Shown here: positions 549 through 8,366 of the stretch, in pieces
Layout of the letters: the number at the start of each line of letters is the position of its first letter
Position numbering within the stretch: the first letter of the stretch is position 1
Source of the DNA: Winogradskyella luteola
GTDB lineage: Bacteria; Bacteroidota; Bacteroidia; Flavobacteriales; Flavobacteriaceae
Direction of reading: 5' to 3'
NCBI RefSeq assembly: GCF_019203985.1
Contig: NZ_JAGSPD010000002.1
Coordinates: 310,001-374,000 of the forward strand
Length of the DNA: 64,000 nucleotides
Notes under the pieces: model-generated
Database searches by the model: none
Told to the model about the DNA's origin: nothing
Seen by the model: only the letters and a program-made list of their open reading frames with translations
Made by a program: the position numbers and the translations under genes

Positions 549-1304
549 TTATAGTCTCACAGAAATTCCCTGCCTCTTTAATTCTTTCTTCAAATCTATG
601 ATCGCAATTTCACCAAAATGAAAAACACTTGCAGCCAAGGCCGCATCAGCTTTTCCTTTCTTAAATGTATCTGCAAAGTGCTGAATCGTTCCTGCTCCGC
701 CTGAAGCAATTATCGGAATATTAACCAACTCAGAGAGTTTTGCCAAAGCTTCATTTGCAAATCCTGCTTTTGTTCCATCATGATTCATGGAAGTAAATAA
801 AATTTCACCTGCTCCACGTTCTTCGATTTCTTTTGCCCATTCAAATAATTTAATCTCTGTTGGAATAGTACCACCAGCCAAATGTACAAACCATTCACCT
901 CCAATTTTTTTAGCATCAACAGCAACGACAACACATTGGCTGCCAAACTTTTCTGATAGTTCATTAATTAACACAGGACGCTTAACAGCTGACGAGTTTA
1001 TAGAGACTTTGTCTGCACCACAATGCAATAAATCATCAACATCCTCCACGGAAGAGATCCCACCACCTACAGTAAACGGAATATTAACTTGCTCAGCGAC
1101 CTTTAAAACCATGTCGTGCATGGTTTTTCGTTTCTCTTGTGTTGCAGAAATATCTAAAAAGACCAATTCATCTGCACCTAAATCTGCGTATTGCTTGGCA
1201 AGAACAACAGGATCACCAGCATCGCGCAAATCTACAAAGTTGACACCTTTTACGGTTCGACCGTCTTTTATATCCAAACAAGGAACAATTCGTTTTGTTA
1301 ACAT
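549..1304 (-). CDS. hisF: Imidazole glycerol phosphate synthase subunit HisF
   Basis: Cyclase subunit of IGP synthase. With HisH it converts PRFAR plus glutamine-derived ammonia to IGP and AICAR. The 251 aa are the full family length and form a (beta/alpha)8 barrel. The catalytic pair D11 (PCLDIKDGR) and D130 (VVVAVDAKK) is present, as are the phosphate loops GGGISSVED and [14 protein letters not shown] at 1304 gives the canonical [13 protein letters not shown]-terminus. It lies 42 bp after hisA, with a short palindrome in that gap, and is co-transcribed with the rest of the his operon. Confidence 0.97.
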
Positions 1305-1312
1305 ATTTTTTT

Positions 1313-1336
1313 TGTCATTTCTGCCTTTGCAGGAAT
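1313..1336. repeat. Short intergenic palindrome between hisA and hisF
   Basis: Contains TGTCATTTCTGCCTTTGCAGG followed by AAT: inverted arms CTGC/GCAG flanked by ATT/AAT. This is the typical REP-like hairpin seen several times in this operon. Confidence 0.55.
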
Positions 1337-1346
1337 ACTCTTTGAA

Positions 1347-2090
1347 TTAATTATTAATTATAAAGTTTTCTAATTGTTTTAAGCTAATTCTATTTTCATA
1401 TATAGCTTTACCTATTATTACGCCTTCGCAACCTAGTTCTGCCAATTGAGGTAACTCTTCATATTTTGAGATACCACCTGAAGCAATTAAATGAAGAGAT
1501 TCCTCTACTTGCTCTGAATAACATTCATTTAAAATACGTTTATACAAATCTAAAGAAGGACCTTCTAGCATACCATCTTTGGAAATATCTGTACAAATAA
1601 CATAATCAATACCTTTTGACTGATACTCTTTTATAAAAGAAATCACTTCTAAATCACTTTCCTCCTGCCAACCCGAAATCGCTATTTTTTCGTTGTTACA
1701 ATCTGCACCAAGGATTATCTTGTTGGGACCAAACTTAGAAATCCAGTTTTCAAAAACCTGAGGGTTTTTTACTGCAATACTTCCTCCTGTGATTTGGTTG
1801 GCTCCTGAATTGAATGCAATTTTTAAATCTTCATCAGACTTTAATCCACCTCCAAAATCTATTTTCAAATTGGTATTTGTAGCTATAGCTTCCAAAACCT
1901 TATAGTTAACGATATGGCTCGCTTTAGCACCATCTAGGTCAACAACATGCAAATATTCAATCCCTGATCCTTCAAAAGTCTTAGCAACTTCTACAGGGTT
2001 TTCATTGTATACTTTTTTTGTGTCATAATCGCCTTTTGTTAGACGCACACATTGGCCATTTATAATATCTATTGCTGGTATTATTCTCAT
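1347..2090 (-). CDS. hisA: ProFAR isomerase HisA
   Basis: 1-(5-phosphoribosyl)-5-[(5-phosphoribosylamino)methylideneamino]imidazole-4-carboxamide isomerase, the fourth step of histidine synthesis, converting ProFAR to PRFAR. At 247 aa it is full length, a (beta/alpha)8 barrel paralogous to HisF. Visible motifs are [16 protein letters not shown] with catalytic D8, [15 protein letters not shown] at 128-130, [12 protein letters not shown] and the phosphate loop [12 protein letters not shown]. It lies 106 bp after hisH; that gap also holds repeat-like sequence (CGCTTCGACCACACTCAGTA). Confidence 0.96.
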
Positions 2091-2196
2091 AATCTTTACC
2101 TCGAAAGTGGGAATCTTTTAATTACTATTCTATTTTTATTGAAACGCTTCGACCACACTCAGTACAGGAAAGCTCAGTGTTGCATTTTATTTCAAA

Positions 2197-2778
2197 TTAA
2201 AGCTCAAGAAAATTTTTCAACAACTGCTCGCCTGTCGTTCCACTTTTCTCAGGATGAAATTGTACTCCGTAAAAATTGCCGTTTTCCAATGCCGAAGCAT
2301 ATTCTATTTCATAATCTGAAGTAGCGATAGCTTCTTCGCAATTTTCTGCATAATAACTATGTATCAAATACATATAATCTTTTTCGTTAATGTTTTTGAA
2401 CAAATCTGATTTTAAATTCTCAACAGTGTTCCAGCCCATTTGTGGTACTTTTACACCATTAGAAAAGCGTTTCACGTTCGTCTTGAAAATACCAAGTCCT
2501 TTGGTATCACCTTCTTCTGTATAGTTGCACATTAATTGCATGCCTAAGCAAATACCCAAAACAGGTTGGCTCAATTTTGGTATAAGCAAATCGAGACCAG
2601 TCTCTTTAAGCATTTTCATTGCTGAACTTGCTTCTCCTACACCTGGAAAAATCACCTTTTCGGCATTAATTATCTCATCAGCATTATTAGATAATTGAGC
2701 ATTATAGCCCAAGCGTTGAAAAGCAAATTGAATGCTCTTTATATTACCCGCACCGTAGTTTACAATTTTTAAATTCAC
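2197..2778 (-). CDS. hisH: Imidazole glycerol phosphate synthase glutaminase subunit HisH
   Basis: Class I glutamine amidotransferase that supplies ammonia to HisF. It is 193 aa with nucleophile C77 in PVLGICLGMQ and the H175/E177 dyad in VQFHPEKSGTTG. The oxyanion-strand motif FPGVGEASSAM is present. The start MNLKIVNYGAGNIKS is canonical. It lies between hisB and hisA, 61 bp downstream of hisB, in the same transcript. Confidence 0.96.
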   Translation of the reverse strand: MNLKIVNYGAGNIKSIQFAFQRLGYNAQLSNNADEIINAEKVIFPGVGEASSAMKMLKETGLDLLIPKLSQPVLGICLGMQLMCNYTEEGDTKGLGIFKTNVKRFSNGVKVPQMGWNTVENLKSDLFKNINEKDYMYLIHSYYAENCEEAIATSDYEIEYASALENGNFYGVQFHPEKSGTTGEQLLKNFLEL

Positions 2779-2796
2779 TTTTATTTTTTAATTCTT

Positions 2797-2838
2797 TGTC
2801 ATTTAGATTCCTCATCGTTTCATTCTTTCGGAATGACA
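2797..2838. repeat. Intergenic hairpin repeat between hisB and hisH
   Basis: Outer arms TGTCATT...GGAATGACA with GATTCC inside; it ends at the hisB stop region. Another member of the TGTCATTCC-type palindrome family. Confidence 0.5.
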
Positions 2839-2839
2839 T

Positions 2840-3976
2840 TTACAACATTCCTTTTGTTGATGGTAAAATCATTTTATCGACATTTTGCTTTATAGCCATT
2901 TTAATTGCCTTAGCAAAAGCTTTGAAAATAGCTTCAATTTTATGGTGTTCATTAACACCTTCAACTTTAACATTTAAGTTACATTTTGCCCCGTCTGTAA
3001 AGGATTTGAAGAAGTGATAGAACATCTCAGTTGGCATTTTACCAATCATTTCGCGATTAAATTCAGCATCCCAAACCAACCAGTTTCGACCACCAAAGTC
3101 AATCGCTACTTGAGCTAAACAGTCGTCCATTGGCAGGCAGAATCCATAACGCTCAATACCAAGTTTATTTCCTAAGGTTTTTGCAAAGACTTCCCCTAAA
3201 GCAATTGCTGTGTCTTCAATAGTATGATGCTCATCGACTTCTAAATCGCCCTCTACTTTAATGTTTAAATCAATCTGGCCATGACGTGCTATCTGATCTA
3301 ACATGTGGTCAAAAAAAGCAATGCCAGTATCTATATTGCTCTTTCCTGTTCCATCTAGGTTAAGGTCAATCTTAATCTTGGTTTCATTTGTGTCACGCTC
3401 AATAAACCCAATACGTTCAGTAGTTTTTAGAAATCTATAAATGGTTTCCCAATCATTAGTTTCTAATGCAATGTGCGCTTCTAATTCATTTTTGCTAACT
3501 GTAATTTCGTCTGTACCGAGATTGGTGTTGTCGTTAATAAAAATCCCTTTTGCACCCAAGTTTTTTGCCAATTCCACATCAGTTAAACGATCACCAATGA
3601 CAAATGAATTAACCAAATCATAATCTTCAGAAAAATACTTTGTTAATAGTCCTGTATTAGGCTTGCGTGTTGGTGCATTATTTTTAGCAAATGTTCTGTC
3701 GATAAATTGCTCTTTAAAAACAACGCCTTCGTGTTTAAAGGTTTTGACTACAAAATTATGAACTGGCCAAAAGGTGTTTTCTGGATAAACATCTGTACCC
3801 AATCCGTCTTGATTGGTGACCATCACAATTTCAAAATTCAATTCTTTGGCAATTTTGCTTAGGTATTGGAATACTTTTGGATAAAACTCTAACTTTTTAA
3901 ACGAATCGATTTGCTCGTCTGCTGGTTCTCTTATTAGTGTTCCGTCTCTGTCTATGAATAGTACTGGTTTTTTCAT
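2840..3976 (-). CDS. hisB: Bifunctional histidinol-phosphatase / imidazoleglycerol-phosphate dehydratase HisB
   Basis: Two-domain histidine enzyme of 378 aa. Residues 1 to about 165 are a HAD-family histidinol phosphatase, with nucleophile motif FIDRDGTLI and late motif [16 protein letters not shown]. Residues about 188-378 are IGP dehydratase, with manganese ligands in [47 protein letters not shown] and [20 protein letters not shown]. The fusion resembles the enterobacterial arrangement and performs steps 6 and 8 of the pathway. It lies after hisC with an 83 bp gap holding two palindromes. Confidence 0.96.
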
Positions 3977-3983
3977 CTTTCTT

Positions 3984-4055
3984 GTTGTTCCTACTCTGGC
4001 AGGAATCTATATTATTTTTGGTTTAAAGTGGATTCCGCATCAAATGCGGAATGAC
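3984..4055. repeat. Two adjacent REP-like palindromes between hisC and hisB
   Basis: The first is GTTGTTCCTACTCTGGCAGG plus AATCT (3984-4008). The second is ATTCCGCAT-CAA-ATGCGGAAT followed by GACA (4031-4055), a 9-bp perfect stem with a 3-nt loop. Both match the family scattered through the his operon and fill almost the whole gap. Confidence 0.6.
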
Positions 4056-4059
4056 AACC

Positions 4060-5106
4060 TCAGTTTAATTCTTTTAATGCCATAATTAATTTTTCATTTT
4101 CGCCTTTAGTCCCTACTGTAAATCTTAGACAATTTCCACATAAAGGTTGTGTTGTTCTATTTCTAACCACAATACCTTTTTTAATTAACTGATTGTAACG
4201 CAAATTAGCATTATCCACTTTTGCCAAAATGAAATTGGCATCAGATGGATACGTGGTTTCTATAAAAGAAATATTACATATCTTAGAACCTAGCACTTCT
4301 CTTTCCTTCAAAATTGAACTTATTTGTTGGCTGACTTCGTTGAGTGAATTTAAGCGAATAAGTGCTTTATCTTGAGTTAGTTGATTGATGTTGTAAGGCG
4401 GCTTAATTTTATTTAATATTGAAATTATGAATTCTGAAGCATAACAAATGCCTAGTCGAATCCCTGCCAAACCGTAAGCCTTTGACAAAGTTTGAGTCAC
4501 GATTAAATTCGGAAACTCATTCAGTCCAATGAGCCAACTTTCTTGATTTGAAAAATCAATATAAGCTTCGTCAATAACTACTATTCCGTTAAATCCATTA
4601 ATTAATTCTACAACTTTATTCCTATTAAAACTATTGGCTGTAGGATTATTTGGGGAGCACAAAAACAAGATTTTTGAATTACTATTCTGTGCCGATAGAA
4701 TTTCTGAAACTTTAGGTTCAAAATTTGTATCCAATTCTACCGAAATAATATCAATAGCGTTTAAATCTGCCAAGACCGAATACATACCATAAGTTGGCGG
4801 CAGAATAATAACATTATCGTCCTTAGGTTCGCAAAATGCTCTAAACAATAAATCTAAGACCTCATCACTACCATTCCCTAAAAGGATTTGAGATGTTGAA
4901 ACTCCCTTAACTTCTGCTAATCGCTCCTTAACCTTGGTCTGTTGCGGATCGGGATATCGATTCACATCGGTCTGAAATGGATTCTCATTAGCGTCCATAA
5001 AGACCATATCCAAAGACATATCTTTATACTCATCCCTTGCTGAAGAATAAGGCTTGATATTTTTAATATTATCTCTAATGAGATTATTTAAATTAAACTC
5101 TTTCAT
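4060..5106 (-). CDS. hisC: Histidinol-phosphate aminotransferase HisC
   Basis: PLP-dependent fold-type I aminotransferase converting imidazole acetol-phosphate plus glutamate to histidinol phosphate. Motifs are GNGSDEVLDLLFRAFCEP, CSPNNPTAN, IDEAYIDF, the PLP lysine K209 in TLSKAYGLAGIRLG, and C-terminal LRFTVGTKGEN. I start it at ATG 5106 (MKEFNLNNLIRDNIKNIKPY, 348 aa). An in-frame ATG at 5127 would add seven atypical residues (MLYRNRK) and leave only 1 bp after hisD. Confidence 0.95.
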   Translation of the reverse strand: MKEFNLNNLIRDNIKNIKPYSSARDEYKDMSLDMVFMDANENPFQTDVNRYPDPQQTKVKERLAEVKGVSTSQILLGNGSDEVLDLLFRAFCEPKDDNVIILPPTYGMYSVLADLNAIDIISVELDTNFEPKVSEILSAQNSNSKILFLCSPNNPTANSFNRNKVVELINGFNGIVVIDEAYIDFSNQESWLIGLNEFPNLIVTQTLSKAYGLAGIRLGICYASEFIISILNKIKPPYNINQLTQDKALIRLNSLNEVSQQISSILKEREVLGSKICNISFIETTYPSDANFILAKVDNANLRYNQLIKKGIVVRNRTTQPLCGNCLRFTVGTKGENEKLIMALKELN

Positions 5107-5128
5107 TTTTCTGTTTCTGTATAACAAA

Positions 5129-6415
5129 CTATTTCTTTAAATCACTCAACCTCAATGACACTGCATTTTTGTGAGCTTGCAATCCTTCAGCTTCAGCCAT
5201 TAATTCAATTGCTGGGCCAATGTTTTTAATTCCCTTTTGAGATATTTTTTGGAAGGTTATACTCTTCTGAAAGCTATCTAAATTCACACCAGAATAAGCT
5301 TTTGAAAACCCGTTTGTTGGTAAGGTATGATTTGTTCCAGAAGCATAATCCCCAGCACTTTCTGGCGTATAATTACCTATAAATACTGAACCTGCATTAC
5401 CGATATTATCTACAAAGTAATCGTTATTTTTAGTAGCCACAATAAAGTGTTCTGGACCATATTCATCAATTAATGTTAGAGCGGTTTCAAAATTATCTAC
5501 AACAATTGATTTAGAGTTATTGATAGCATCAACAGCCATATCTTTTCTCGGCAATACTTCCAGTTGGGCAGAAATTTCAGCATCTACCTTTTTAGCAAAT
5601 GATCTTGAAGTCGTTATTAAAATCACTTGACTATCCGAGCCATGCTCTGCCTGACTCAATAAATCTGACGCCACATATACTGGATTTGCAGAATCATCAG
5701 CCATAATCAATAATTCACTTGGGCCAGCAGGCATATCTATAGCAACACCATACTTAGTAGCCAATTGCTTTGCAACCGTAACAAATTGGTTTCCCGGCCC
5801 GAATATTTTATAGACTTGCGGAATTGATTCTGTACCAAAAGTTAAGCCCGCTATAGCTTGAATACCACCTACTTTTATAATTTTGGTAACGCCACAAAGC
5901 TGTGCTGTATACAAAATTTCATTGGCGATTTTGCCTTTGCGATTTGGTGGTGAGCACAAAACAACTTCTTTACAACCTGCTATATTAGCAGGAACAGTTA
6001 GCATTAAAACAGTAGAAAATAAAGGTGCTGTTCCACTAGGTATATACAAACCTACTTTTTGAATAGGTCTTTTTTCTTGCCAGCATTCTACCCCATCCAT
6101 AGTAGTTACTTGAACTCGACTTGTTCTTTGGGCTCTATGAAATGCATCAATATTTGATTTTGCCAATTGAATAGCTTGCTTTAAGTCTTCCGATACAACT
6201 TTTGACGCTTCTTTTATTTCTTCATCTGTAACTACAAAAGAATCCAGTTTTACTTTGTCAAATTTTGATGTGTATGACTTTATAGCTCTATCACCATCAG
6301 TTTTAACACTCGCAAAAATATCATTAACGATTGATTCAATATCATCAACGGTCTGAGTAGGTCGTTGCAATAAAGTCTTCCAATCGGATCTATCTGGGTT
6401 TATGTATGTTTTCAT
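5129..6415 (-). CDS. hisD: Histidinol dehydrogenase HisD
   Basis: Zinc-dependent NAD enzyme oxidising histidinol to histidine in two steps, the last in the pathway. It is 428 aa, full length. Visible signatures are the family pattern GPSELLIMADDSANP, LLSQAEHGSDSQVILIT, the GPEHFIV segment with catalytic Glu-His, and YTPESAGDYASGTNHTLPT. ATG at 6415 gives MKTYINPDRSDWKTLLQRP, typical of Bacteroidota HisD. It follows hisG with a 55 bp gap carrying one palindrome. Confidence 0.97.
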   Translation of the reverse strand: MKTYINPDRSDWKTLLQRPTQTVDDIESIVNDIFASVKTDGDRAIKSYTSKFDKVKLDSFVVTDEEIKEASKVVSEDLKQAIQLAKSNIDAFHRAQRTSRVQVTTMDGVECWQEKRPIQKVGLYIPSGTAPLFSTVLMLTVPANIAGCKEVVLCSPPNRKGKIANEILYTAQLCGVTKIIKVGGIQAIAGLTFGTESIPQVYKIFGPGNQFVTVAKQLATKYGVAIDMPAGPSELLIMADDSANPVYVASDLLSQAEHGSDSQVILITTSRSFAKKVDAEISAQLEVLPRKDMAVDAINNSKSIVVDNFETALTLIDEYGPEHFIVATKNNDYFVDNIGNAGSVFIGNYTPESAGDYASGTNHTLPTNGFSKAYSGVNLDSFQKSITFQKISQKGIKNIGPAIELMAEAEGLQAHKNAVSLRLSDLKK

Positions 6416-6470: not shown

Positions 6471-7328
6471 TTATAGGACCATATTCTCTATTGGACAAAC
6501 AAGAATTCCTTCTGCTCCACTTGCTTTAAGCTCATCTATGACATTCCAAAAATCATTTTTATTTATTACTGAGTGTAGTGAACTCCAGCCTTTTTGAACC
6601 AATGGTAAAATAGTCGGCGAGTTCATTCCTGGTAATATTTCAACAATCCTATCTAGTTTTTCATTTGGCGCATTCAACAACACGTACTTGTTTTCCCTTC
6701 CTTTTAAAACAGACTTTAAACGAAATTGAATTTTATTGATAATTGTTTGATTTTCAGCAGAAATTCTCGGTGAGGTTGCCAATACAGCTTCAGACTTTAA
6801 GAGAACTTCAATTTCTTTTAACCCGTTTTTAAACAATGTACTTCCGCTAGAGACTATATCGCATATTCCATCAGCCAAACCAATGTTAGGGGCAATTTCA
6901 ACAGAGCCATTAATGATATGGAGGTTTGCCTTAATGCCTGCTAGATCTAAAAAATAGTTTACAGTGTTTGGATATGATGTTGCTATACGCTTTTGCTCTA
7001 AATCCTTTAATGATTTGACTTTGGAAGCTTTGGGCACAGCAATAGAGACTCTACATTTTGAAAATCCAAGTTTTTCAACTATGTTGATATCATCACCTTT
7101 TTCAATAAGCACATTTTCTCCGATAATAGCGGCATCAACAACACCATCTCTTAAGTATTGAGGTATATCTCCATTACGTAAATAGAACACTTCTAACGGA
7201 AAATTTCTAGCGGATGCTTTTAATTGGTCTTTACCATTATCTACTGATATTCCGATTTCTTTTAAGATTTTCATGGAATCATCGTGAAGACGACCAGATT
7301 TCTGAACAGCAATTTTTAATTTACTCAT
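6471..7328 (-). CDS. hisG: ATP phosphoribosyltransferase HisG (long form)
   Basis: First, feedback-controlled step of histidine synthesis: ATP plus PRPP to PR-ATP. The chosen start at 7328 (MSKLKIAVQKSGRLHDDSMK) gives 285 aa, the length of the long HisG form with its own C-terminal regulatory domain, so no HisZ is expected. The PRPP-loop motif GLADGICDIVSSGSTL is present near residue 165. Longer in-frame starts at 7379 and 7358 lie in or directly after the attenuator hairpin and add residues not typical of the family. It is the first structural gene of the operon, directly downstream of the His leader peptide and terminator. Confidence 0.95.
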   Translation of the reverse strand: MSKLKIAVQKSGRLHDDSMKILKEIGISVDNGKDQLKASARNFPLEVFYLRNGDIPQYLRDGVVDAAIIGENVLIEKGDDINIVEKLGFSKCRVSIAVPKASKVKSLKDLEQKRIATSYPNTVNYFLDLAGIKANLHIINGSVEIAPNIGLADGICDIVSSGSTLFKNGLKEIEVLLKSEAVLATSPRISAENQTIINKIQFRLKSVLKGRENKYVLLNAPNEKLDRIVEILPGMNSPTILPLVQKGWSSLHSVINKNDFWNVIDELKASGAEGILVCPIENMVL

Positions 7329-7365
7329 TTCTAATTTTAGTTGGTCTGAAAATATCATGAGCTCA

Positions 7366-7403
7366 ATAAAAAAACCCATTTGATATTCTCAAACGGGTTT
7401 TAA
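7366..7403 (-). terminator. his operon attenuator (intrinsic terminator upstream of hisG)
   Basis: On the minus strand AAACCCGTTTGA (7400-7389), loop GAATA, TCAAATGGGTTT (7383-7372) form a 12-bp stem with one G-U pair, followed directly by a U-run (TTTTATT). It lies between the histidine-rich leader peptide stop (7435) and the hisG start (7328), exactly where an attenuator should be. An antiterminator pairing with the leader region is inferred, not worked out. Confidence 0.85.
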
Positions 7404-7434
7404 TATATTATGTTGAAAATTAATCAATACATCA

Positions 7435-7488
7435 TCACCTCGCTTGAGCGATTATGTGAAAATGATGATGTAATTGAATAAAATTCAT
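7435..7488 (-). CDS. hisL: his operon leader peptide
   Basis: A 17-codon ORF reading MNFIQLHHHFHIIAQAR then TGA. Four of five consecutive codons are histidine (HHHFH). It stands 106 nt upstream of the hisG start with a perfect terminator hairpin in between. This is the classic arrangement of ribosome-mediated attenuation: when charged tRNA-His is scarce, the ribosome stalls at the His codons and the terminator does not form. His-codon leaders are well known in enterobacteria; I infer the same mechanism here from architecture alone. Confidence 0.82.
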   Translation of the reverse strand: MNFIQLHHHFHIIAQAR

Positions 7489-7520
7489 TTCTATTTTGTT
7501 CTGAACAAAGTTTCAGAAAA

Positions 7521-7549
7521 TAAAATTACAATTCCAAGTGTTTAACAAA
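7521..7549 (-). promoter_or_regulatory. Candidate promoter of the his operon
   Basis: On the minus strand TTTG (7549-7546), 17 nt spacer, then TAATTTTA (7528-7521), close to the Bacteroidota consensus TTTG / TAnnTTTG with A in the last position. It sits immediately after the stop codon of the SPFH gene and about 33 nt upstream of the leader-peptide ATG. Confidence 0.5.
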
Positions 7550-7553
7550 AAAA

Positions 7554-8366
7554 TTATTGATTACCTAAAATAATTGGCATTCCGCTTTCACCAGAACCAA
7601 TTATAACTATCTTACTATTAGGTGATTCCGCTAATTTATTTGTCGCTTCAATACCTTTATCTTGAAGAATTTTATCCGTTAATGAAGCACTCAAAATCCT
7701 ATTTGCGTCTGCTTTACCTTGAGCTTCAATACGTTGTTTTTGAGCTTCTTTATCTGCAGTAACTAATCTAAACTCGTATTCTAAAGATTCTTGCTCTTGC
7801 TTTAATTTACGTTCAATTGCTCCTTTAATTGTTGGTGGTAATTGAACATCTTCTACTAAAACACGTTTTACTGTTAAAAACTGACCATCTAAAAGCTTTG
7901 TAACTTCATCTAAGATTTCTTGTTCAATAACATCTCTTTTACTAGAATATAATTGCTCAGGAGTATAGCGACCGACCACACTTCTTGCAGCAGCATTTAT
8001 AGCAGGATCTAGTAATTCGTGCTCATAGTCTTCGCCTTTAGTTTTAATGAGGTTTCCAAGGTTACTGTATTCTGGTTCGTACCAAATAGTTCCGTTAACT
8101 TTAACTTCTAAACCATTTACAGATAACACATTCATTTTATCAGAAATCGACTGTTGTCTTACTTTTCTAACTATCATTTCGTTCCAAGGAGCGACTATAT
8201 GAAATCCTTCACCATAAGTTTTATCGGTGTTTATACCATCACCAAAACGTTCAAATATTACGCCTCCCTCACCAGGACCAATGGTCACAGCAGATTTGGC
8301 TATTAATATAATTAATAATACAATCCCAATTAATATTGGCAACCCAATTTTTGGCAATTTTTCCAT
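7554..8366 (-). CDS. SPFH/prohibitin-family membrane protein
   Basis: 270 aa. An N-terminal membrane anchor (about residues 9-27, IGLPILIGIVLLIILIAKSA) is followed by an SPFH domain (about 27-190; GPGEGGVIFERFGDG, EVKVNGTIWYEP) and a charged helical coiled-coil (about 190-245; LKQEQESLEYEFRLVTADKEAQKQ). Such proteins assemble into ring scaffolds at the membrane and often modulate proteases (HflC/K, prohibitins). The exact partner is unknown and no protease gene adjoins. It lies 11 bp after the VWA gene, so the two are probably co-transcribed. Confidence 0.85.
   Translation of the reverse strand: MEKLPKIGLPILIGIVLLIILIAKSAVTIGPGEGGVIFERFGDGINTDKTYGEGFHIVAPWNEMIVRKVRQQSISDKMNVLSVNGLEVKVNGTIWYEPEYSNLGNLIKTKGEDYEHELLDPAINAAARSVVGRYTPEQLYSSKRDVIEQEILDEVTKLLDGQFLTVKRVLVEDVQLPPTIKGAIERKLKQEQESLEYEFRLVTADKEAQKQRIEAQGKADANRILSASLTDKILQDKGIEATNKLAESPNSKIVIIGSGESGMPIILGNQ

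Follow-up and report, generated by a model that had tools for sequence, protein, structure and literature searches.

A histidine leader-peptide attenuator before hisG in Winogradskyella luteola, with a putative additional pairing strand downstream of the terminator

Known attenuators and the his locus

Leader-peptide attenuation, one of the founding examples of gene regulation, is mostly known from Proteobacteria. The his attenuators of Escherichia coli and Salmonella (hisL; Rfam RF00514) combine a His-rich leader peptide (MTRVQFKHHHHHHHPD in E. coli, for which leader and terminator were read for comparison) with a terminator located before hisG, and the E. coli system also has an antiterminator. 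In Bacillus subtilis trpE, the read-through RNA is controlled at the level of translation as well, with the TRAP protein sensing the amino acid, and the Sinorhizobium trp leader RNA acts in trans on other mRNAs (the rnTrpL type). Attenuators have reportedly been catalogued in many phyla by Lyubetsky and co-workers. To the knowledge of the authors of a 2010 study, Proteobacteria and Actinobacteria were, apart from ermC, the only groups with demonstrated leader-peptide systems; the study added the Firmicutes (PMC2965389). In a paper devoted to his genes in Bacteroidota, attenuation is covered for S. enterica and E. coli (PMC8305728), and the 5' UTRs of Bacteroides thetaiotaomicron contain short ORFs reminiscent of leader peptides (PMC7366714). 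For Flavobacterium psychrophilum, one study presents strong indications that amino-acid operons are preceded by leader-peptide attenuators, along with a structured element before hisG that is present in other genera of Flavobacteriaceae and has no Rfam hits (PMC9723704). The latter is very probably the same element as the one described here; the portions of that paper that concern it neither name a strand downstream of the terminator nor state it as a leader-peptide case. Nor was a description of such a strand for his terminators found among the openly accessible titles and abstract openings surveyed.

The window analyzed here is a stretch of 64,000 nucleotides of the Winogradskyella luteola genome. 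It carries on the minus strand a his operon with the gene order hisGDCBHAF, downstream of a leader and a terminator. Among named hisG sequences, those closest to that of the window come mostly from Winogradskyella. The first regulated gene, hisG (6471-7328, with the ATG at 7328; TIGR00070, E 1.6e-53), is followed by hisD, hisC, hisB, hisH, hisA and hisF (549-6415), and the identities of all seven products are backed by NCBIfam models. The genes behind the attenuator are thus those for the biosynthesis of histidine, the amino acid of the leader codons. Upstream of the leader, on the same strand, lies a gene of the SPFH/Band 7 family (7554-8366; PF01145, E 5.7e-31). No Rfam family, including T-box and Flavo-1, matches the 64-kb window at the gathering score, and the His_leader model RF00514 reaches only 28.2 bits on the local stretch (cut-off 49). 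Other sub-threshold matches between 7320 and 7540 on the minus strand are trpB RF04312 (32.6 bits, cut-off 59) and SSRC10 (29.4 bits).

The window element shares with hisL the His-rich leader peptide, the terminator before hisG and the antiterminator. It differs from the enterobacterial system in its shorter 1:2/2:3/3:4 scheme and in the presence of a fifth strand, which was not detected in the E. coli his leader (p 0.68). Altogether, the attenuator itself is real but ordinary and partly in print, and strand 5 is the part for which no description was found in the literature surveyed.

Leader, terminator and antiterminator

The initial annotation placed a histidine-codon attenuator at positions 7366-7488. 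Its coordinates and wording are correct, the leader ORF and the terminator both being read directly from the window, and the complete leader/terminator pair that it claimed is borne out by sequence, folding and conservation, so that the candidate is confirmed as a real, complete his leader system. The leader ORF MNFIQLHHHFHIIAQAR (7435-7488, minus strand, as are all features below; 17 codons including the TGA stop) extends from the ATG at 7488 to a TGA with the final base at 7435, and is supported by conservation; its regulatory His codons, CAT CAT CAT TTT CAC, are located at 7456-7470. Strand 1 (7463-7479), delineated by folding and covariation, contains His codons and forms a helix with the 3' half of strand 2. 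Strand 2 itself (7423-7448), derived from the alignment and the folds, consists of the antiterminator segment CTCAAGCGAGG (7448-7438) and TGATGATGTATTGAT, which pairs with strand 1. Strand 3, ACCCGTTTGAG (7388-7398), is the 5' arm of the terminator and the target of strands 2, 4 and 5. The terminator hairpin 3:4 (7371-7401), backed by folding and covariation, has the form AAAACCCGTTTGA-GAATA-TCAAATGGGTTTT with 13 bp, one of them G:U, and its U-run of seven T is read at 7368-7374. Folding, which the initial annotation had proposed as a way to find an antiterminator, reveals one in which CTCAAGCG (7448-7441) pairs with CGTTTGAG (7395-7388). Given the His leader, the terminator and the antiterminator strand at 7448-7438, the element is almost certainly a ribosome-mediated (leader-peptide) transcription attenuator, as judged from its sequence and from comparison.

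The RNA from 7500 to 7362 folds at -43 kcal/mol, compared with -18.5 on average in shuffles (sd 3.15; z -7.8; none of 200 shuffles equal), and the 1:2 hairpin is present in predicted folds (dot-bracket) of the window RNA. When nascent RNA of the window is folded with a block the size of a ribosome over His codons 7-9, the probability of 2:3 is 1.0; it drops to 0.46 with the ribosome on His 11 and to at most 0.03 without a ribosome or with the ribosome at the stop codon. The 3:4 hairpin is favored at equilibrium in every state after strand 4 emerges. Attenuators generally work by the order of synthesis, and an equilibrium preference for the terminator is usual.

Comparative support was obtained from an alignment of 68 sequences, comprising the window and those 67 of the 80 named loci in which the leader-to-start length is at most 188 nt. 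Length changes inside the leader ORF are whole codons, so that the frame is kept. In 3:4, 96.4% of cells are paired, with 27 cells changed on both sides compared with 6.1 in shuffles; the outer 1:2 pairs are 89.7% paired and show weak covariation. The 2:3 pairing (93.5% of cells) is practically invariant inside Flavobacteriaceae, with no both-side changes in the 68 sequences, and was therefore tested across the class. Of 58 class loci, 41 have a leader that pairs with the 5' arm of the same locus better than shuffles do (p<=0.05), and in 51 the native leader exceeds the mean of the swapped leaders. Through shared strands, 2:3 excludes both the terminator and the 1:2 hairpin; within the family, this mutual exclusion is supported by conservation only.

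The distribution of the leader is broad. An upstream ATG-initiated ORF with at least three His codons precedes each of the 29 hisG loci detected among 40 genomes (the window's own and relatives) and all 80 named hisG loci; these two sets overlap partly (e.g., L012 and L030), so the counts are not independent. In the sample with one genome per genus of Flavobacteriaceae, in which 124 of the 129 genomes with hisG were analyzed (G000, G011, G100, G163 and G189 were covered separately), the leader is present in 122 of 124 loci (absent in L346 and L354), and a terminator follows in 118 of the 122 (absent in L317, L375, L376 and L392). The search for His-rich leaders in flavobacterial genomes that the initial annotation called for is thus positive, and the His run, the loss of which in close relatives would have spoken against the attenuator, is conserved. 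An even sample of the class Bacteroidia (197 genomes, 89 with hisG, 87 loci analyzed; G000 and G028 covered separately) has a His-run ORF upstream of hisG in 76 of 87 loci, compared with 8 of 435 shuffled upstream regions, and a terminator after the leader in 58 of the 76. When only ATG-initiated ORFs are counted, His leads at 71 of the 87 loci, with Leu as the runner-up at 20. A few of the 76 ORFs, such as that of L173, are probably accidental.

In other families of Bacteroidia, His-run leaders precede hisG with no terminator by the rule used. In one such group, the leader peptides end with HHSS (L183, L217, L218, L221 and L243) or HHAS (L239), and in most of its members a GAGGAA-type hairpin extends over the stop codon; further leaders without a terminator were found in L192, L199, L206, L211, L222 and L231. 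These terminator-less leaders could possibly represent another kind of attenuation.

A promoter can be predicted directly ahead of the leader. The window contains a -7-like element, AAACTTTG (7506-7513), that matches the NAnnTTTG pattern of its relatives, the consensus of the sigma-A -7 box in F. psychrophilum being TAnnTTTG (PMC9723704), and a -33-like element, CTTGGA (7533-7538), with TTGG 21 nt upstream of AAACTTTG and TT[AG]G at a matching spacer in relatives. NAnnTTTG was found anywhere in the upstream region of 105 of 108 loci, compared with 241 of 2160 shuffles; in 101 of the 105 it ends 16-20 nt before the leader ATG, and TT[AG]G separated from A..TTTG by 21-22 nt was scored 90 times in the 108 loci. 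This predicted promoter would place the RNA start about 10 nt before the leader ATG, upstream of the leader rather than downstream of 7435, and would yield a very short 5' UTR; a leader start of this kind needs no Shine-Dalgarno (SD) sequence. A palindrome, TTTGTTCAGAACAAA (7509-7495), overlaps the end of the -7 box ahead of the leader ATG; it was rejected as an operator because, by eye, it is not conserved in the genus alignment.

The initial annotation remarked that control by this element should work despite weak SD signals, but these are not special to it: Bacteroidota as a whole naturally lack SD sequences, and starts in F. johnsoniae are tuned by upstream adenines and by low structure in the zone from -20 to +20, with which the SD-less leader start in the window agrees (PMC6847099). 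The suggested rarity of such leaders in the phylum does not hold either. The his leader is nearly universal before hisG in the sampled Flavobacteriaceae and common in Bacteroidia, all 28 full-length trpE-like loci examined also have a leader with WW or WWW, and leader-peptide attenuation is already in print for F. psychrophilum (PMC9723704). What stands of the earlier interpretation is the leader/terminator/antiterminator architecture.

The trp set comprises 28 of 30 fetched loci (L110-L137), none of which reached the cut-off of the trpE model; the other two (L138 and L139) are weaker matches. A terminator was found in 27 of the 28, with none in L125. The trp leader of the window's own genome (L134, contig C50) reads MKTKTNHTWWWNFSNSCS. 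Ile-rich leader peptides (e.g., MNKQVIIIISIISIAIISRCQGMV) were observed about 320-370 nt before ilvD in six loci of relatives (L140, L146, L151, L153, L155 and L157); no ilvD match was obtained in the genome of the window.

A fifth strand between the terminator and hisG

The initial annotation recognized the classical leader/terminator pair and missed a further strand. Strand 5, TGATATTTTCAGAC (7344-7357), first seen in the genus alignment, lies downstream of the terminator, is complementary to the terminator 5' arm and loop (7394-7381), and is separated from the hisG ATG by 15 nt. The duplex of 7357-7344 with 7394-7381 has an energy of -22.7 kcal/mol, compared with a shuffle average of -7.6; partners swapped in from loci with another loop average -14.1, and none is as good. 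Among 95 distinct loci, strand 5 beats shuffles (p<=0.05) in 89 and the mean swapped partner in 90. These 95 remain of 108 parsed loci after removal of identical combinations of hairpin and downstream sequence (94 under a shorter duplicate key); L001 was not parsed, and L074 and L085 are outside the set because the hairpin was missed by the finder.

In the 68-sequence alignment, 89.2% of strand 5 cells are paired and 58 cells are changed on both sides, compared with 21.1 in shuffles. The covariation score is 0.285, compared with 0.174 in shuffles (sd 0.009; 0 of 500) and at most 0.096 in slid registers, and the loop positions of the terminator covary with strand 5. The number of pairs with any double change, five, is not above the 4.4 of the shuffles in these 68 sequences. 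Parsimony on the HisG protein tree (67 loci, 55 with a usable register) yields 23 double compensatory changes, 35 single pair-keeping changes and 29 breaks.

The kind of mismatch tolerated in the helix points to the molecule that pairs. For this count and for the tree, registers with at least 60% Watson-Crick pairs and less than 60 nt to the AUG were used (82 and 55 loci, respectively), and the first column, which lies outside the helix, was omitted. Inside the helix, G:U occurs 76 times and A:C 12 times, compared with 0.064 and 0.062 in shuffled strands. When the first column, in which C faces A, T or C, is included, the counts are 76 and 65, and when both the first and the last columns are omitted, they are 76 and 6; the one-per-genus repeat gives 98 G:U and 19 A:C inside the helix (78 of 89 positive loci). 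The excess of G:U over A:C indicates pairing of sense-strand RNA rather than of the antisense strand or DNA. Strand 5 as a DNA operator or an antisense-strand structure is ruled out by the same observations, namely that loop and strand change together and that the in-helix differences are G:U in the sense strand. Selection for 3:5 pairing as RNA is therefore well supported by sequence comparison and very likely. Strand 5 can be considered an addition to the classical four-strand design, with strong support as a selected RNA pairing and with a putative function.

The phyletic distribution of strand 5 is narrower than that of the leader. In Flavobacterium, where 90 of 120 genomes have hisG, strand 5 was detected in all 29 loci tested among the best 30 of the 90; one locus on a short contig (L263) has no leader. 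In the one-per-genus sample, it beats shuffles in 89 and swaps in 92 of 115 loci (L302, L334 and L370 being left out because the downstream sequence is too short); strand 5 is thus not universal, the remaining 26 of the 115 showing no significant pairing. Only 11 of 55 loci are positive in the class sample, most Bacteroidia tested being without strand 5; ten of these belong to families f1, f34, f35, f37 and f51, and the isolated positive in f19 may be due to chance. Trp leaders of the same family likewise combine a Trp-codon peptide with a terminator but have no strand 5 as a rule: it reaches p<=0.05 in only 2 of 27, one of them in the window's own genome (L134), so that strand 5 as a general design rule of flavobacterial attenuators is unsupported. 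Only two of seven ilvD leaders could be parsed under the rule used, both strand-5 negative, which is too few to judge.

The position of strand 5 relative to hisG is constrained. The gap between the end of strand 5 and the hisG AUG measures 12-22 nt in 78 of 89 loci, with an interquartile range of 14-17. In several loci (e.g., L095 and L056), inserts, some of them hairpins, part strand 5 from the terminator or from the AUG, and the pairing is kept. In L303, L341 and L384, which have ATGACAAAA hisG starts, strand 5 by eye extends to mirror the whole upper terminator hairpin, and this extended form could fold on itself with a loop complementary to the terminator loop.

Possible roles of strand 5

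The explanation that we consider probable on the whole involves four classical strands with strand 5 as an extra control. With enough His-tRNA, the ribosome would read through the leader and strand 2 would be covered or held by strand 1; with strand 2 unavailable, 3:4 would form and transcription would end before hisG. When His-tRNA is short, the ribosome would stall on the His codons, 2:3 would pair and RNA polymerase would read through. Only then would strand 5 emerge and pair with strand 3 and the loop: in the antiterminated RNA, the free loop could serve as a toehold from which strand 5 displaces strand 2 from strand 3. The 3:5 helix would keep the mRNA out of the 3:4 form, so that the hisG start region would be more open than in leaky read-through RNA still carrying 3:4, and a single decision would govern both the transcription of hisG and its translation.

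Since the terminator is transcribed ahead of strand 5, no effect of this strand on termination at the U-run is expected; it can act on read-through RNA, and its position beside the hisG start points to translation. Strand 5 sits at the upstream edge of the low-structure zone from -20 to +20 known for F. johnsoniae starts (PMC6847099). An action on hisG translation in some way appears somewhat likely; that it is exerted in the ON direction, such that hisG translation follows the transcription decision, is a more tentative proposal. Folds in which 3:5 is imposed have a more open start region than those with 3:4 in 53 of 60 and 77 of 89 loci; part of this opening is unspecific, shuffled starts gaining +0.078 compared with +0.135 for the own starts, which exceed the control in only 55 of 89 loci. 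In nested folds, 3:4 beats 3:5 at equilibrium by a median of 4.75 kcal/mol in 60 loci and 2.8 in 89, with mean probabilities in relatives of 0.92 for 3:4 and 0.02 for 3:5. Strand 5 as the equilibrium fold of the read-through RNA is thus unsupported, and 3:5 pairing needs a kinetic route, likely an exchange from 2:3 through the free loop. With a stalled ribosome modeled, the probability of 3:5 in the window is 0.51-0.80, compared with 0.13-0.34 for 3:4; it exceeds that of 3:4 in only 2 of 60 relatives.

Several other readings of the locus have to be weighed against this scheme. The opposite sign of control is unlikely: here 3:5 would be a lock that forms when the leader ribosome is not stalled and strand 3, free of strand 4, pairs with strand 5, and its helix, ending about 15 nt before the AUG, would bar the 30S subunit from hisG until 2:3 releases it. 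The tight spacing of strand 5 to the AUG, bordering the -20 to +20 zone (PMC6847099), and the use of the same bases of strand 3 by strands 2 and 5 are in keeping with a lock; however, folds with 3:5 show the start to be more open, not less (77 of 89), and strand 3 is taken by 3:4 when no ribosome is stalled. An action in trans, in which the loop of the terminated leader RNA pairs with strand 5 of full-length hisG mRNA, is quite improbable. The complementarity is indeed centered on the loop, the positions of which covary with strand 5, but the same pairing is available in cis at a much higher local concentration, and a loop contact does not require the conserved half of strand 5 that matches strand 3. 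A strand without function, kept alike by template switching during replication, would be compatible with close inverted copies; this possibility is very improbable given that correction at the DNA level would produce exact copies whereas the in-helix differences are G:U rather than A:C (76:12 and 98:19), and that the spacing to the AUG is narrow. Finally, with the SPFH/Band 7 gene (7554-8366) upstream on the same strand, the hairpin might be the mere terminator of that gene and the His ORF a chance occurrence. This is barely credible considering the His leader in 122 of 124 one-per-genus loci, the promoter-like motif before the leader in 105 of 108 and the positive antiterminator tests (41 of 58 and 51 of 58); a chance ORF is ruled out by conservation (29/29, 80/80 and 122/124).

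A further alternative concerns the hisG start codon itself. Strand 5, or the adjoining CTCAT (7357-7361), might pair with the hisG start ATGAGTAAA and sequester it, with the start-mimicking strand 3 and loop as a competitor. In the window, CTCAT can by eye pair with the start ATGAG (7328-7324), a weak, lineage-specific anti-start, and the stretch downstream of the U-run pairs with the start at -7.2 kcal/mol (shuffle p 0.035). The terminator arm and loop (TGAGTAAAT) imitate the hisG start ATGAGTAAA in many loci, at least seven bases being shared in 46% of 67 loci compared with 1% of comparisons with class families that lack strand 5. Pairing between the strand-5 stretch and the start reaches p<=0.05 in 56 of 90 loci, compared with 2 of 75 class loci from families without strand 5; among the best 30 of 90 Flavobacterium loci, 28 of 29 are positive. 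Joint changes of start and strand 5 are seen in Flavobacterium loci whose hisG begins with ATGAGTACA or ATGAGTACT (-10.9 and -9.7 with the own start, compared with -6.6 for the common one); Bizionia with ATGAAC is a further case (-11.1 compared with -5.9). Conversely, only 38 of 115 one-per-genus loci are positive, and none of 12 loci with ATGACAAAA starts is, although 10 of the 12 keep 3:5. The start changed with no compensation in several Winogradskyella (ATGAAT), L053, L057, L086 and L232, and the own start gives no clear gain in L237 (ATGAGTATT; -11.5 compared with -11.1) and L071 (-9.2 compared with -9.9). Start sequestration is rather unlikely as the explanation of strand 5: as its universal reason, start pairing is unsupported in the one-per-genus sample (38 of 115), and at best it is a lineage-specific refinement.

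Returning to the scheme of four classical strands with strand 5 as an extra control, it is conceivable, as a more speculative extension, that the whole constitutes a relay of five strands (six in Flavobacterium) in which the terminator arm is read twice, by RNA polymerase and then by the initiating ribosome. The second reading might, just as tentatively, proceed through strand 5 and partly through mimicry of the hisG start by the terminator loop. If such a relay exists, one stalled leader ribosome would set both transcription and translation of hisG, with no SD sequence to hide. As in B. subtilis trpE, one leader would then control the first gene twice, in its transcription and in its translation, the second control being the conjectural one here; unlike in B. 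subtilis, the sensor is the ribosome on a leader peptide and not TRAP.

Altogether, attenuation is the normal state before hisG in the sampled Flavobacteriaceae and common in Bacteroidia, that is, in bacteria without SD sequences. If strand 5 works as proposed, translation would provide a correction for leaky read-through, and the gating of start codons by RNA structure in SD-less bacteria would become testable on a small, well-defined RNA in the genetically tractable genus Flavobacterium.
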